Shown: positions 45,901 to 52,972 of the stretch, piece by piece | Numbering within the stretch: position 1 is the first letter of the stretch | Layout: the number at the start of each line of letters is the position of its first letter | Program-made: the position numbers and the translations under genes | Assembly (NCBI GenBank): GCA_018657955.1 | Contig: JABHWD010000011.1 | Location: forward strand, 1 to 64,000 | Length of the DNA: 64,000 nucleotides | Direction of reading: 5' to 3' | Source: Flavobacteriaceae bacterium | Lineage (GTDB): Bacteria > Bacteroidota > Bacteroidia > Flavobacteriales > Flavobacteriaceae | Notes under the pieces: model-generated | The model's database searches: none | The model's input: only the letters and a program-made list of their open reading frames with translations | What the model was told of the DNA's origin: nothing

Positions 45901-46872
45901 ATGCCTAAAGTAAAATATTATTACGATTCTAATACGCTTTCGTATAAAAAAATTAAAACAACTAAAAGAACTGTTTTAAAATACGTTTCAGTATACCTTT
46001 TGGGTTCTGCATTGTTTGGATTTTTATTTATTCTAATTGTAAGTAAATATTTTGAATCCCCAAAAGAAAAATCTCTAACACGAGAACTGCAAAATTTACA
46101 AATGCAATTTACAGTTTTAAATAAAAAAATGGATAATGCTGAAAGTGTATTATCAAATATTGAGGAAAGAGATAATGCTATTTATAGAATATATTTTGAC
46201 GCTAATCCAATTAGTGAAGATAAAAGAAAAGCTGGTATAGGTGGTGTAAATAGATATAAAAAATATGATGGATATGATTACTCAAACTTAATTAAAGAGA
46301 GTGCTAAAAAAATTGATATTTTACAAAAAAGAATGATTATTCAGTCTAAGTCTTTAGATGAAATCACAAGCCTTGCCTCTAAAAAGGAAAAGTTATTGAA
46401 ATCAATTCCTGCAATTCAACCAATAAATAATAATAATCTTACAAGAATAGCTTCAGGTTTTGGCTATAGATCAGATCCATTTACAAAGGTTTTAAAGTTT
46501 CATTATGGCATGGATTTTACAGCTCCTAGAGGAACACCTATATATGCAAGTGGTGATGGTATTGTTAAAAGAGCTGATAGTAGATCGTCTGGATATGGCA
46601 AACATATTAGAATTGATCACGGATATGGATATACCAGCTTATATGCACATCTCTACAAATACAATGTAAAAAAATATCAAAAAGTAAAAAGAGGTGATTT
46701 AATTGGTTATGTTGGAAGTTCTGGGAGGTCTAATGCACCACATCTTCACTATGAAATATTTAAAGATAAAATTAAAATTAATCCAGTTAATTTCTATTAT
46801 GGTAATTTAACAGCTAAAGAATTTGATGAATTATTAAAGAAAACTTCTCTTGTAAATGAATCACTTGACTAA
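45901..46872 (+). CDS. M23 family peptidoglycan metallopeptidase, membrane anchored
   Basis: GFGYRSDPFTKVLKFHYGMDFTAPRGTPI...SNAPHLHYEI. Confidence 0.93.
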   Translation: MPKVKYYYDSNTLSYKKIKTTKRTVLKYVSVYLLGSALFGFLFILIVSKYFESPKEKSLTRELQNLQMQFTVLNKKMDNAESVLSNIEERDNAIYRIYFDANPISEDKRKAGIGGVNRYKKYDGYDYSNLIKESAKKIDILQKRMIIQSKSLDEITSLASKKEKLLKSIPAIQPINNNNLTRIASGFGYRSDPFTKVLKFHYGMDFTAPRGTPIYASGDGIVKRADSRSSGYGKHIRIDHGYGYTSLYAHLYKYNVKKYQKVKRGDLIGYVGSSGRSNAPHLHYEIFKDKIKINPVNFYYGNLTAKEFDELLKKTSLVNESLD

Positions 46873-47201
46873 TGAAAGTTGATCTTCCTGAAAAAAGATA
46901 TTATTCAATTGGTGAAGTAGCTGATGCATTTGATGTTAATCCTTCACTAATTAGATTCTGGGAAACTGAATTTTCAATTTTAAATCCTAAAAAAAATGCA
47001 AAGGGTAATAGAAAATTCACAACGCAAGATGTTGAAAATTTAAGTCACGTATATTTTTTAGTAAAAGAACGAGGATATACTATTGAGGGTGCAAAAACAT
47101 ATATAAAAGAGCATAAAAAGAAATCTCTAAATACACTTGGTATAATAAATAAACTAAAAGAAATTAGATCTAGATTAATAAAGATAAAAGAACAACTTTA
47201 A
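46872..47201 (+). CDS. MerR-family transcriptional regulator
   Basis: RYYSIGEVADAFDVNPSLIRFWETEF. Confidence 0.9.
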   Translation: MKVDLPEKRYYSIGEVADAFDVNPSLIRFWETEFSILNPKKNAKGNRKFTTQDVENLSHVYFLVKERGYTIEGAKTYIKEHKKKSLNTLGIINKLKEIRSRLIKIKEQL

Positions 47202-47202
47202 C

Positions 47203-48504
47203 TTATTTCTTTCTCATATATATATCAATCTGCGCTCCACATAAGTCAAAATTTTCTCTAATTTTATTTTCAAGAAATCTTTTATAAGGGTCCTTTATAT
47301 ACTGAGGTAAATTACAAAAGAAAGCAAATTGTGGATGTGAAGTAGGAAGTTGTGTAATGTATTTTATCTTAACATACTTCCCCTTTATTGCTGGTGGTGG
47401 ATACTTAGCAATTATTGGTAATAAAATATCGTTTAATTCTCTAGTTTTAATTTTTTTAGACCTATTAGTATATACATCAACTGCAGATTCAATTGCCTTA
47501 TATATTCTTTGCTTATTTATTATTGAAACAAAAATTATTGGAACATCAACAAAAGGTTCAATTTCTTTTTTGATTTGAATCTCATAATTCTTTGTTGATT
47601 TATTATCTTTTTCAATTAAATCCCATTTATTAGCAATAATTACTATTCCTTTTTTATTTCTTTCACATAGCCAAAAAATATTTTTTACTTGTGAATCAAA
47701 TCCTCTGCTAACATCATAAATTAATAAACAGACATCAGAATATTCAATAGCCCTGACGCTACGCATTACAGAATAAAACTCAAGATTTTCTTTTACTTTT
47801 GATTTTCTTCTTATGCCAGCAGTATCAACTAAATTGAACTCAAATCCAAATCTCTTATATTTTGTATGAATTGAATCCCTTGTTGTGCCTGGTATATCTG
47901 TTACGATATTTCTGTTCTCTCCAATTAATGCATTAATAAATGAAGATTTTCCTGCGTTAGGTCTTCCAATAACAGCAAATTTTGGTAGATCATCTGAAAG
48001 GTCAATATCTTCTGAAAAATCCTTGACAACATCATCGAGTAAATCTCCTGTTCCAAATCCATTAATGCTTGCAATTGGGTAATATTTATCAATTCCTAAT
48101 TCATAAAACTCAGTAGCATCATTAATTCTAGCTGAACTATCGACCTTATTAACAACTAAATAAACAGGTTTGTTGTTTTTTCTAAGCATATTTGCTATAT
48201 CCATATCCATAGAAGTTATTCCAGACTCAACATCAACCATAAAAATGATTATATCAGCTTCATCTATTGCTAATTCAACTTGCTTGTCAATTTCTAATTC
48301 AAATATATCATCACTGCCAACAACATAGCCGCCAGTATCAATTAATGAAAATTCTTTTCCATTCCAATCTCCTTTTCCATAATTTCTGTCTCTAGTAACG
48401 CCACTAACTGAATCAACAATAGCTTCTCTTTGTTTTACAATTCTGTTAAACAAAGTTGACTTACCTACATTAGGCCTTCCCACTATGGCTATTATATTAC
48501 TCAT
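47203..48504 (-). CDS. der: GTPase Der (EngA)
   Basis: Two G domains: [13 protein letters not shown] and [14 protein letters not shown]. Confidence 0.97.
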
Positions 48505-48520
48505 AATATTAAAATGTGTG

Positions 48521-48528
48521 CAAATGTA
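48521..48528 (-). promoter_or_regulatory. Possible -7 element of der promoter
   Basis: Minus strand TACATTTG matches TAnnTTTG; no clear -33 TTTG. Confidence 0.35.
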
Positions 48529-48544
48529 AGGGTAAAATTATATT

Positions 48545-48585
48545 AAAAAAAAAGAGCAGCTTAAAATTAAGCTGCTCTTTTTCAA
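48545..48585 (-). terminator. Intrinsic terminator downstream of 48601-49350
   Basis: AAAGAGCAGCTTAAAATTAAGCTGCTCTTT flanked by A/T runs. Confidence 0.85.
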
Positions 48586-48600
48586 TAGAATAATTTTAGA

Positions 48601-49350
48601 CTATTCTTGAATTGGTACTGGTGGTGAACTTAGTTCAGGTAGCCATCTCCATATTTCAGAGTAATTTCCCCAAGCATTAAGACTCTCATTGAAAGCTTTT
48701 TGGTCAGTCTTAAAAGATTCTTCACCAAATAATTCCTTATAAGCTTCAATTACCTTAGGCCATGTTTCATTTTCATTATCAATTCCAGACATATCTTTAC
48801 TGCCATAACCTACAATTACATGACCATTAGGTCCGCCCAATGATCCAGACCAAACATTTAAACTTATATTGCCAACTTTTTCTGCAGCCTGTGCAACTCT
48901 TCTTCTAAATTGCCAAAAATCTGGGCCACCATTCCTCTTTACATTATAGTGCAAAACTTTAGAAATTCTATTTGATCCAGCCACAGCATCATCGAAACTT
49001 GCATTTGTTGCATATTGCATATATTCTGTTCCCCCAACATTTAATATTAAAGGTGAAACATTTTCAATCCAGTAATCATATCCTGCATTATCCCATGAAT
49101 CAAGCTGAGCTAAAGATTCACCAAATCCTACTCTAACTAAATAATTAGCTCTTTCTCCAGCTACAATTTCATAAGTGTATATTAATCGTCCGCTTTCAAG
49201 AGTATTGAATGTTTTTGTCTTCTCAGCTATTGCTTCTCTTGCTTGTTTTGTGTTTGATGGATCTACTTTATAAGCAGACATCCAAATTTGTTGACCAGCG
49301 GCATTAAAAGTAAATGCAACTAGACATAACAATAAAATTGTTTTTTTCAT
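48601..49350 (-). CDS. Exported hypothetical protein, possibly tandem dimeric alpha/beta-barrel-like
   Basis: Sec signal MKKTILLLCLVAFTFNAAGQ; two halves of similar layout. Confidence 0.5.
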   Translation of the reverse strand: MKKTILLLCLVAFTFNAAGQQIWMSAYKVDPSNTKQAREAIAEKTKTFNTLESGRLIYTYEIVAGERANYLVRVGFGESLAQLDSWDNAGYDYWIENVSPLILNVGGTEYMQYATNASFDDAVAGSNRISKVLHYNVKRNGGPDFWQFRRRVAQAAEKVGNISLNVWSGSLGGPNGHVIVGYGSKDMSGIDNENETWPKVIEAYKELFGEESFKTDQKAFNESLNAWGNYSEIWRWLPELSSPPVPIQE

Positions 49351-49470
49351 TTTTCTTGTTTTTAATTAAATTAATGTGATTATAAAAACTATTAGTTAAT
49401 AGTTCATGATCAATATACAAATTTTATAATTTCTGTGATTTATTAAAACAAGATATTAATATGGCTAATA

Positions 49471-50346
49471 TTATTTGTATCCAAATCTCTTAAGTTGATT
49501 TTTATTATTTCTCCAATTCTTATTAACCTTTACAAATAATTCTATATGAATTTGTTTGCCAAAAAAAGTTTCTAAATCTTTTCTTGATTTGATTCCTACT
49601 TTCTTTAATGCACTCCCTTTATGACCAATTATTATTCCTTTCTGACTATCTCTCTCAACCATTATTACTGATCTAATTCTTATAATTTTTTCATCTTCTT
49701 TGAATTCTTCAGTTAATATTTCAACAGAATAAGGTATTTCTTTATTATAATTTAACAGGATTTTCTCACGAACTATTTCATTTACAAAAAACCTCTCTGG
49801 TTTATCAGTAAGTTGATCTTTAGGAAAATACGGTGGGCATTCTGGTAATAATTCAATTAATCTTTGAAGAAGACTATCAACTTGAAATTTTTTAAGAGCT
49901 GAAATTGGAAATATTTCTGCATTTGGAAGTTTTGTTTTCCATTCGTCAACCTGATTCTCTAATTCTTCTTGATTAGATAGATCAATTTTATTAATTAATA
50001 ATATTACAGGGATAGATGAAAATTTTATTTTATTAAATAAATTTTCATCCTTTAAGCTTAATTCTCCAATCTCTATCATATATATTATAATATCTGCGTC
50101 ATTAATAGCAGTTTTAACAAAATCCATCATCGAAGATTGAAGTTCATAAGAGGGTTTAATTACACCAGGAGTATCTGATAAAACTAATTGAAAATCCTCT
50201 CCATTGACGATTCCTAAAATTCTATGCCTTGTAGTTTGAGCCTTTGAAGTAATAATTGAAAGTTTTTCTCCTACCAAAGAATTCATCAATGTTGATTTAC
50301 CAACATTTGGATTACCTATAATATTTACAAATCCAGCTTTATGCAT
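49471..50346 (-). CDS. era: GTPase Era
   Basis: [22 protein letters not shown]-terminal KH domain. Confidence 0.96.
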   Translation of the reverse strand: MHKAGFVNIIGNPNVGKSTLMNSLVGEKLSIITSKAQTTRHRILGIVNGEDFQLVLSDTPGVIKPSYELQSSMMDFVKTAINDADIIIYMIEIGELSLKDENLFNKIKFSSIPVILLINKIDLSNQEELENQVDEWKTKLPNAEIFPISALKKFQVDSLLQRLIELLPECPPYFPKDQLTDKPERFFVNEIVREKILLNYNKEIPYSVEILTEEFKEDEKIIRIRSVIMVERDSQKGIIIGHKGSALKKVGIKSRKDLETFFGKQIHIELFVKVNKNWRNNKNQLKRFGYK

Positions 50347-50525
50347 GAGGTCAAAAGTATTAATTATCTTTTTAATGATGATTAATATTAGAAAAAAGAG
50401 AGTTTTTCAATTGTTGGTTTTTATAAATTTTAACTAAGCAAAAAATAAATGTATATTGTATATGAAAATAAATAAAAAATGTATACTAAAATATCTTTAA
50501 TTAAACGAACAGTTTTCTCTTTGCT

Positions 50526-52028
50526 TTGTTTTCGTTTTTTCTAACTGGCTGTAATAAATCAGGGTTAGATTATACAATTGAAACTGTTTTAAACCCAAAT
50601 AAAATTTCACCTCTTACGGCAATCTTAAATATAACATCTGATATACCTTGCAAAGCTACAGTAAAAGTCTTAGGAGATATTTCTGTAGAACAATCTTTTG
50701 AAGAGTCAAGTACAAATTTAAATGTTCCTGTTTTAGGGCTCTATCCTAATAAACTTAACCAAGTTGAAATAACTCTAGATTATGAGGGTGGGCAAAAAAT
50801 AGATGTAATTGAAATTCAGACTTCAGAAATTCCAAATTATTTTCCAGATATTGAGGTAAATAAATTAGAAAAAGATAAAATGGAATCAGGTATGCATGCT
50901 TTGGATATTCATTTTGCAAATTTCGGTAAATTTCGTTCTGCTCCAATAATTTTTGATGATAATGGTAATATAAGATGGTATTTAGATTTAAGTTTTCATG
51001 GAGCTATGGTTGGACCATTTCAAAAAATTAAAAATGGAAATATTTTAGTTTCAGGAAGAAGAACTATTTATGAATTTGATATGATGGGAAAACTGCTTGT
51101 AATGATGAAAATCGATAACAACTATGGCATTCATCATGACATCCTCGAATTACCTAATGAAGATTTATTGCTTTGTGTTGGCAAAAGAGATGCTTATATG
51201 GAAAAGGATGGCAAAAGTGTTTTATCTGACAATGATTTCATAATACATTTCGACAGAAAAAAATCTAAAATTTTAAAAGAATGGGACTTAGCAAAACATT
51301 TAGATGTTAACAGAGATGATTTGAATTTCTTTCGAGACGGAGATTGGTTCCATATGAATGCCTTAGAATTTGATAAGAGAGATAGTACCATTATTGTTTC
51401 TGGAAGAAACCAAGGATTGGTGAAAATAACTTGGGATGATAAATTGAAATGGATTATGTCTCCAAAACAAAATTGGGGGAAGTCAGGTAGAAAAGGAAAA
51501 GGATATGATACAAAGCCTTATTTACTTACCGCTCTCAATAAAGAAGGCAAGCCTTATAACAAAGATGTCCAAAATGGTATAAAAAGTGCTGATGATTTTG
51601 ATTTTCCTTGGGGACCACATGCACCTTCCTTGCTACCTAATGGGAATATTATTGTATTTGATAATGGTCCTTTTAGAAATTATAACAATGAGAATAATTA
51701 TTCGAGAGCAGTAGAATATGAAGTAAATGAAATTGATAAAACTTTTAAGCAAGTTTGGGAATATGGGAAAAGCAGAGGAGTTGAATTATTCTCTACTATT
51801 GTAAGTGATGTGGATTTTCTTCCAACTACAAAAAATATATTAATGACTTCTGGTTTTATAAGCCCTAAAAACGTACACAAAGCAAAAATTGTTGAAATTT
51901 CTCCAAAAGATAATAAAGAAGTTTTTGAAGCAACTATTTTTCTTAAAAATACAAATAGAGGAAATAAACCTGGTTGGGGGCAAACAGATGTTTTATATAG
52001 GTCCGAAAGAATGGAATTAAAAAATTAG
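50526..52028 (+). CDS. Aryl-sulfate sulfotransferase (ASST)-like lipoprotein, apparent N-terminal frameshift
   Basis: ASST-like propeller (GIHHDILELPNEDLLL, GPHAPSLLPNGNIIVFDNG); ORF starts only at TTG, lipobox FLTGC; true start likely ATG 50479 in another frame. Confidence 0.7.
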   Translation: MFSFFLTGCNKSGLDYTIETVLNPNKISPLTAILNITSDIPCKATVKVLGDISVEQSFEESSTNLNVPVLGLYPNKLNQVEITLDYEGGQKIDVIEIQTSEIPNYFPDIEVNKLEKDKMESGMHALDIHFANFGKFRSAPIIFDDNGNIRWYLDLSFHGAMVGPFQKIKNGNILVSGRRTIYEFDMMGKLLVMMKIDNNYGIHHDILELPNEDLLLCVGKRDAYMEKDGKSVLSDNDFIIHFDRKKSKILKEWDLAKHLDVNRDDLNFFRDGDWFHMNALEFDKRDSTIIVSGRNQGLVKITWDDKLKWIMSPKQNWGKSGRKGKGYDTKPYLLTALNKEGKPYNKDVQNGIKSADDFDFPWGPHAPSLLPNGNIIVFDNGPFRNYNNENNYSRAVEYEVNEIDKTFKQVWEYGKSRGVELFSTIVSDVDFLPTTKNILMTSGFISPKNVHKAKIVEISPKDNKEVFEATIFLKNTNRGNKPGWGQTDVLYRSERMELKN

Positions 52029-52039
52029 TAAAACAATTA

Positions 52040-52972
52040 TTATTTATTTTCAATTATCTCTACTCCCCGATCATTTATTTTTGAAACGTATGTTGAAAAT
52101 TCTAATCCAGATCCTGAATAAACTCTATTAATAGATTGTTCTACATGCTTTGCTCGATCAATTCCCTGACTCAGGGCAAAAATTGATGGACCTGAACCAG
52201 AAATGGAACAACCTAATGCTCCGTTAGACAAACACTCTGATTTAATTTCTTGAAATTTTGGAATAAGCTTACTTCGATGCTTTTCAATTAAATGGTCGTT
52301 AAGTGATGATTTAATTAAATCATAATCGCTTGTGTGAAGACCGTGTATAAGACTACCAAAATTTGCCAATTGTTTCGTAGCATCTTCTAAACTAACATCC
52401 TTTGGTAAAATACTTCTTGAATAAGAAGTTTTTACTTCAATTTTAGGATGTACAACTGTACAATATAGATCATTTGGAGATGGTATTTTTATTATTTCAA
52501 GAGGAGAAATACTTTTCACTAAAACAAAACCTCCCAATAATGCAGGAGCAATATTATCTGGATGCTCAAACATACCATCTTCCTGCATATCTTTCATTGC
52601 AAACTTTATAAGATCACCCATAGTAAATGGGTCTCCCATTAATTTATTTATAGCATATACACTTCCTGCTGCACTAGCTCCGCTGCTGCCTATTCCACTT
52701 CCTGGTTTTATTTTTTTTATAATCTCTATTTCAAAACCGCAATCTGGATTTAATTTTTCTATTAATTTTGATGCAGAAACTGTTGCGGCGTTTTTTTTAA
52801 TATCCATAGGAAGATCAAAACCGGAAACATTATTAATTGTTAATCCCTTCTGGAGTGTTTTCCTAACAATCATCTCATCACCAATAGATTCCAACGGAAA
52901 TCCAAGAACATCAAAACCACAAGCAACATTAGATACCGTTGCAGGAGAAAAAATTCTTATCTCATTTATCAT
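52040..52972 (-). CDS. thrB: Homoserine kinase (GHMP family)
   Basis: FSPATVSNVACGFDVLGFPLE; PGSGIGSSGASAAGSVYA. Confidence 0.94.
   Translation of the reverse strand: MINEIRIFSPATVSNVACGFDVLGFPLESIGDEMIVRKTLQKGLTINNVSGFDLPMDIKKNAATVSASKLIEKLNPDCGFEIEIIKKIKPGSGIGSSGASAAGSVYAINKLMGDPFTMGDLIKFAMKDMQEDGMFEHPDNIAPALLGGFVLVKSISPLEIIKIPSPNDLYCTVVHPKIEVKTSYSRSILPKDVSLEDATKQLANFGSLIHGLHTSDYDLIKSSLNDHLIEKHRSKLIPKFQEIKSECLSNGALGCSISGSGPSIFALSQGIDRAKHVEQSINRVYSGSGLEFSTYVSKINDRGVEIIENK

Follow-up and report, generated by a model that had tools for sequence, protein, structure and literature searches.

The question raised by this locus is why the 5' end of a gene for a predicted arylsulfotransferase (ASST) lipoprotein is split between two reading frames, and whether the split reflects a real allele, an error in the assembly or a device that controls export. 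The window, by which we mean the whole 64,000-nucleotide stretch of DNA analysed, carries the gene on the forward strand. Translation showed that the frame opened by ATG 50479 reads MYTKISLIKRTVFSLLCFRFF and then meets a stop at 50542–50544; the segment 50479–50544 (+), originally the start codon and the n- and h-region of the signal peptide, now ends in this TAA. The downstream frame, which carries FSFFLTGCNKSGLDYTIETV, stays open over 500 codons between TTG 50526 and 52028 (50526–52028, +) and includes the lipobox L-T-G-C (50541–50552, +), whose Cys codon lies at 50550–50552. The n-region, hydrophobic core and lipobox Cys of an Lsp-type signal are thereby distributed over two frames, and the absence of one base beside 50529 is what breaks the lipoprotein signal peptide of the ASST gene. 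The deletion site is given as 50528–50529 (+), although alignment alone cannot distinguish a position between G50528 and T50529 from any position within T50529–50532. A preliminary description had reported the early stop in the ATG frame, the open TTG frame and the loss of one base from an ASST-like lipoprotein signal with a lipobox; both translations and the single gap in the alignments bear this out.

The product of the open remainder (500 aa) is a predicted two-domain ASST, as a profile search matched the catalytic propeller PF05935 over residues 112–472 at 300.7 bits (cut-off 24.2) and the N-domain PF17425 at 55.5 bits. The active-site residues of Escherichia coli AssT are H252, H356, N358, R374 and H436 (PMC10932419; PMC13426309), and in an alignment to 3elq_A the equivalents of all five were kept both in the window and in the profile. 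The two-domain architecture and the five catalytic residues are thus common to the flavobacterial ASST and the PAPS-independent AssT of E. coli CFT073 (PDB 3ELQ; PF05935/PF17425), whereas the flavobacterial protein is distant in sequence and is a predicted lipoprotein with a lipobox Cys, in contrast to the soluble periplasmic AssT. Since the split from L009, the closest strain, the ASST of the window lineage has acquired three synonymous substitutions and one non-synonymous substitution (small numbers, polarised with L002). With five of five catalytic residues conserved, the ASST body looks functional.

Relatives were collected by a scan of GTDB genomes, which yielded 51 loci. L009 (MAG UWMA-0351, contig DUDG01000015.1) shows 98.4% DNA identity over 49451–52153 and was termed same-species on two block identities, this one and a neighbouring block at 95.7%. 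Its signal, MYTKISLIKRTVFSLLCFLFFLTGCNKSG, is unbroken. Over the gene and its 5' flank, the window and L009 differ by one gap, which lies in the same place as in the DNA alignment with four congeners, where a single-base gap beside 50529 interrupts otherwise collinear coding sequence. The gap is not a chance near-match, as the sequence ahead of it keeps its coding sense (MYTKISLIKRTVFSLLCF) and the window and L009 agree base for base between the ATG and the gap. In the whole-genome set, ASST is encoded in four congeners at 78–88% identity; the gene is therefore present, with intact frames, in four of five congeners, which argues for its maintenance by selection within the genus. Moreover, in each of the 32 flavobacterial relatives whose sequence spans this region, the most distant at about 50% identity, an unbroken ORF links an N-terminal Met, a hydrophobic stretch and a Cys. 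The start codon equivalent to 50479 and a 25-residue Met-to-Cys signal are kept in congeners; in a residue-by-residue list of 28 of the 32 relatives, the signal measured 25 residues in close relatives and 17–25 overall. No out-of-frame allele was found among the 32, no second genome with the same deletion was found among the relatives compared, and viral contigs searched for either allele gave no match. The deletion is, as far as these alignments reach, private to this assembly. The preliminary description had proposed a comparison of strains and had considered that relatives might genuinely start at the TTG; L009 and the 31 other flavobacterial relatives proved intact, and they begin upstream with a full signal.

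Several features of the neighbourhood were noted in the same comparison. Between der and era, the window encodes a 249-aa secreted-looking protein (48601–49350, −) with no Pfam or NCBIfam match. Its gene occupies the same position in G001 (L017) and G005 (L018) and is absent from L009, the same-species contig, and from L010, L012 and L038, where der and era adjoin; it is patchily present. L038 (NZXC01000015.1), which contains ambiguous bases and is filed under 'Candidatus Neomarinimicrobiota' (NAT422), carries a flavobacterial der-era-ASST-thrB block at 84–93% identity, and this contig is probably misbinned. In addition, the identity of the window to L009 is 95.7% over 45943–48567 and 98.4% over the adjacent block 49451–52153, a difference that may reflect recombination.

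The nature of the lost base was then assessed from the nearest sequences. At the site the window reads TTTG-TTTTCG, L009 reads TTTGCTTTTTG and L002 reads TTTGCTTTTCT. These two nearest relatives both carry a C at the position missing in the window (TGC-TTT), and the same codon is TGT (L004), TGC (L003) or TTC (L005) in more distant congeners. A second difference between the window and L009 (TCG vs. TTG) was polarised to the L009 lineage. Loss of the C adjoining T4 requires one event, and contraction of a T5 run needs an additional C-to-T change; the lost base is therefore more likely the C than a T from the run, by parsimony rather than proof. The preliminary description, which restored the frame by adding a T, was correct that one base is missing, but the nearest relatives carry C at that position. 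This reading removes the chief reason in the sequence to suspect homopolymer slippage.

Taken together, the intact signal in the closest strain and in 31 other relatives indicates that the change is either a private mutation or an error of the assembly, not a switch. We hold with high confidence that the change is a private deletion or an error with no regulatory role. The probabilities expressed here and below are judgements and were not computed. Between the two, we lean slightly towards a real, very recent, strain-level loss-of-function allele, to which we give nearly an even chance, with a consensus error about equally likely. In the proposed sequence of events, a private, non-programmed one-base deletion would fall within the signal-peptide codons of a gene whose product, an ASST lipoprotein (PF17425 and PF05935), is normally exported. 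Translation from the intact start codon would stop after 21 codons and yield a 21-residue abortive peptide, and an ASST started at the TTG would have no charged n-region and only a minor part of the hydrophobic core. The hydrophobic stretch of the TTG-started protein would probably be too short for ordinary Sec export, and the protein would be neither exported nor lipidated.

The real allele is favoured by the single gap, with no other disruption, against L009 and the four congeners, by the unbroken Met-to-Cys ORF in all 32 relatives, and by the substitution pattern and conserved catalytic residues of the gene body. Furthermore, ASST matches were found in only 3 of the 51 genera searched; the gene is patchy above the genus level, and its loss may therefore be tolerable. 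On the other side stand the maintenance of intact frames in four of five congeners and the failure of any second genome to share the deletion. Because the remaining gene still looks selected, the deletion, if real, would be very recent and too young for decay to show in the ASST body.

A consensus, sequencing or amplification error, by which the assembly would have dropped one base from a gene that is intact in the cell, is the strongest alternative, and we consider it only somewhat less than evenly probable. The preliminary description reasonably offered a sequencing or assembly error as one reading. In its favour, the deletion is private, with the same-species contig and all relatives intact, and the gene body retains every catalytic residue without decay. 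The stretch between ATG and gap, unchanged from L009, points the same way. However, the site is not a long homopolymer, the usual place of indel errors, and the assembly shows no general excess of frameshifts. The latter was established by a frameshift survey that set 1.31 Mb of unmasked sequence from G000, the present genome, against 1.16 Mb of the congener G005 (AG-319-B23), comprising 799 orthologous ORFs and 827 kb of coding sequence, and blind to shifts shorter than about 30 bases and to genes with no orthologue. The survey flagged 10 genes for long out-of-frame segments, and on inspection ASST was the only clean single-base coding frameshift. The other flagged genes inspected showed upstream non-coding sequence, C-terminal divergence, or a frameshift with deletion at the end of a gene; the remaining cases, judged from the table only, were short segments at the C-terminus or inside the gene, genes that are shorter in G005 than in G000, or matches confined to a gene end. 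Consistently, among 53 orthologues in 60 kb syntenic with G005, ASST alone had an N-terminal signal misaligned by a change of frame. The low frameshift rate therefore gives no sign of frequent indel errors or of gene decay on a wide scale; a generally error-ridden assembly was rejected, and its absence also favours the real allele. A literature search for indel errors in MAGs returned nothing directly relevant. Strain-private frameshift alleles or pseudogenes and assembly indels in draft bacterial genomes share with this case a single-base indel, intact relatives and a conserved gene body, and nothing is distinctive here except that the signal peptide and not the enzyme was hit.

Two further observations came from the survey. 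In G000, a glucosaminidase-like lipoprotein (contig C6, 21098–21736; L108) has lost, by a frameshift and deletion, a C-terminal LysM-like domain that is present in G005. G005 itself carries apparent frameshifts at C7 ~10035, C19 3095–3517 and C3 86408–86815 (L114, L126 and L159), where the G000 counterparts are longer, open genes.

Homopolymer phase variation, which would act as an on/off switch for the export of a surface sulfotransferase, was suggested in the preliminary description and appears very improbable. Its appeal is that the break adjoins T4 and T6 close to the 5' end of a gene for a surface lipoprotein, as in contingency loci. The runs were correctly placed (TTTT at 50529–50532 and TTTTTT at 50535–50540), but they are unremarkable: the window, with a G+C content of 30.7%, contains 984 A/T runs of exactly 4 and 253 of at least 6, about one per 250 bases, and 1.31 Mb of the genome contains 3,709 runs of 6, with the longest reaching 12. 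The T4 and T6 tracts, the only ones at the site, are background in this 30% G+C genome. Moreover, unlike in contingency loci, no alternative 'off' allele occurs among the relatives, and even L010, L011, L027, L032 and L033, with T7 or T8 in the signal codons, are all in frame. As L009 and L002 read TGC-TTT, loss of the C takes one event and tract contraction two. Phase variation was thus rejected on run length, the lack of off-alleles and the parsimony of the lost base. No directly relevant literature on homopolymer phase variation in flavobacterial lipoproteins was found. A strain-level on/off polymorphism for export of the ASST lipoprotein in this uncultured marine flavobacterium, combined with a low level of rescue through slippage in T6, is scarcely more credible.

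Rescue of some full-length lipoprotein by ribosomal −1 frameshifting or polymerase slippage is likewise very doubtful. The deletion happens to set U_UUU_UUC in −1 phase right before UAA (50535–50544), and this heptamer (T_TTT_TTC, 50535–50541, +), which is in slippery phase with the ATG frame and abuts the TAA, would lead into the ASST frame to give ...LLCFRFFLTGC. However, in relatives these Phe codons belong to the ordinary frame, with no conserved shift site, and no stable stimulatory RNA structure was found downstream of the heptamer (fold z = 0.34). The heptamer is best read as an accidental by-product of the deletion in an arrangement that relatives do not conserve; programmed frameshifting was rejected, its downstream fold being unremarkable, and after-the-fact leakage into the ASST frame is conceivable at a low level at most. 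Least probable of all is a true start at TTG 50526, giving an ASST that is either not exported or exported atypically: TTG can serve as a start codon and the ORF is open from it, but in MFSFFLTGC the Cys is preceded by only 8 residues, none of them positively charged, and this start was rejected as the conserved start of relatives is the upstream ATG, with a lipoprotein signal of 25 residues in close relatives and of 17–25 residues in more distant ones.

The finding is an ordinary one, and neither a real allele nor an error alters biological understanding. Its main relevance is to annotation, as automatic pipelines will call this ASST from the TTG with no export signal, while its orthologues are predicted exported lipoproteins. 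If the change is an error, it amounts to one base in a draft genome; if the allele is real, it would provide a small example of the recent loss of a surface enzyme.
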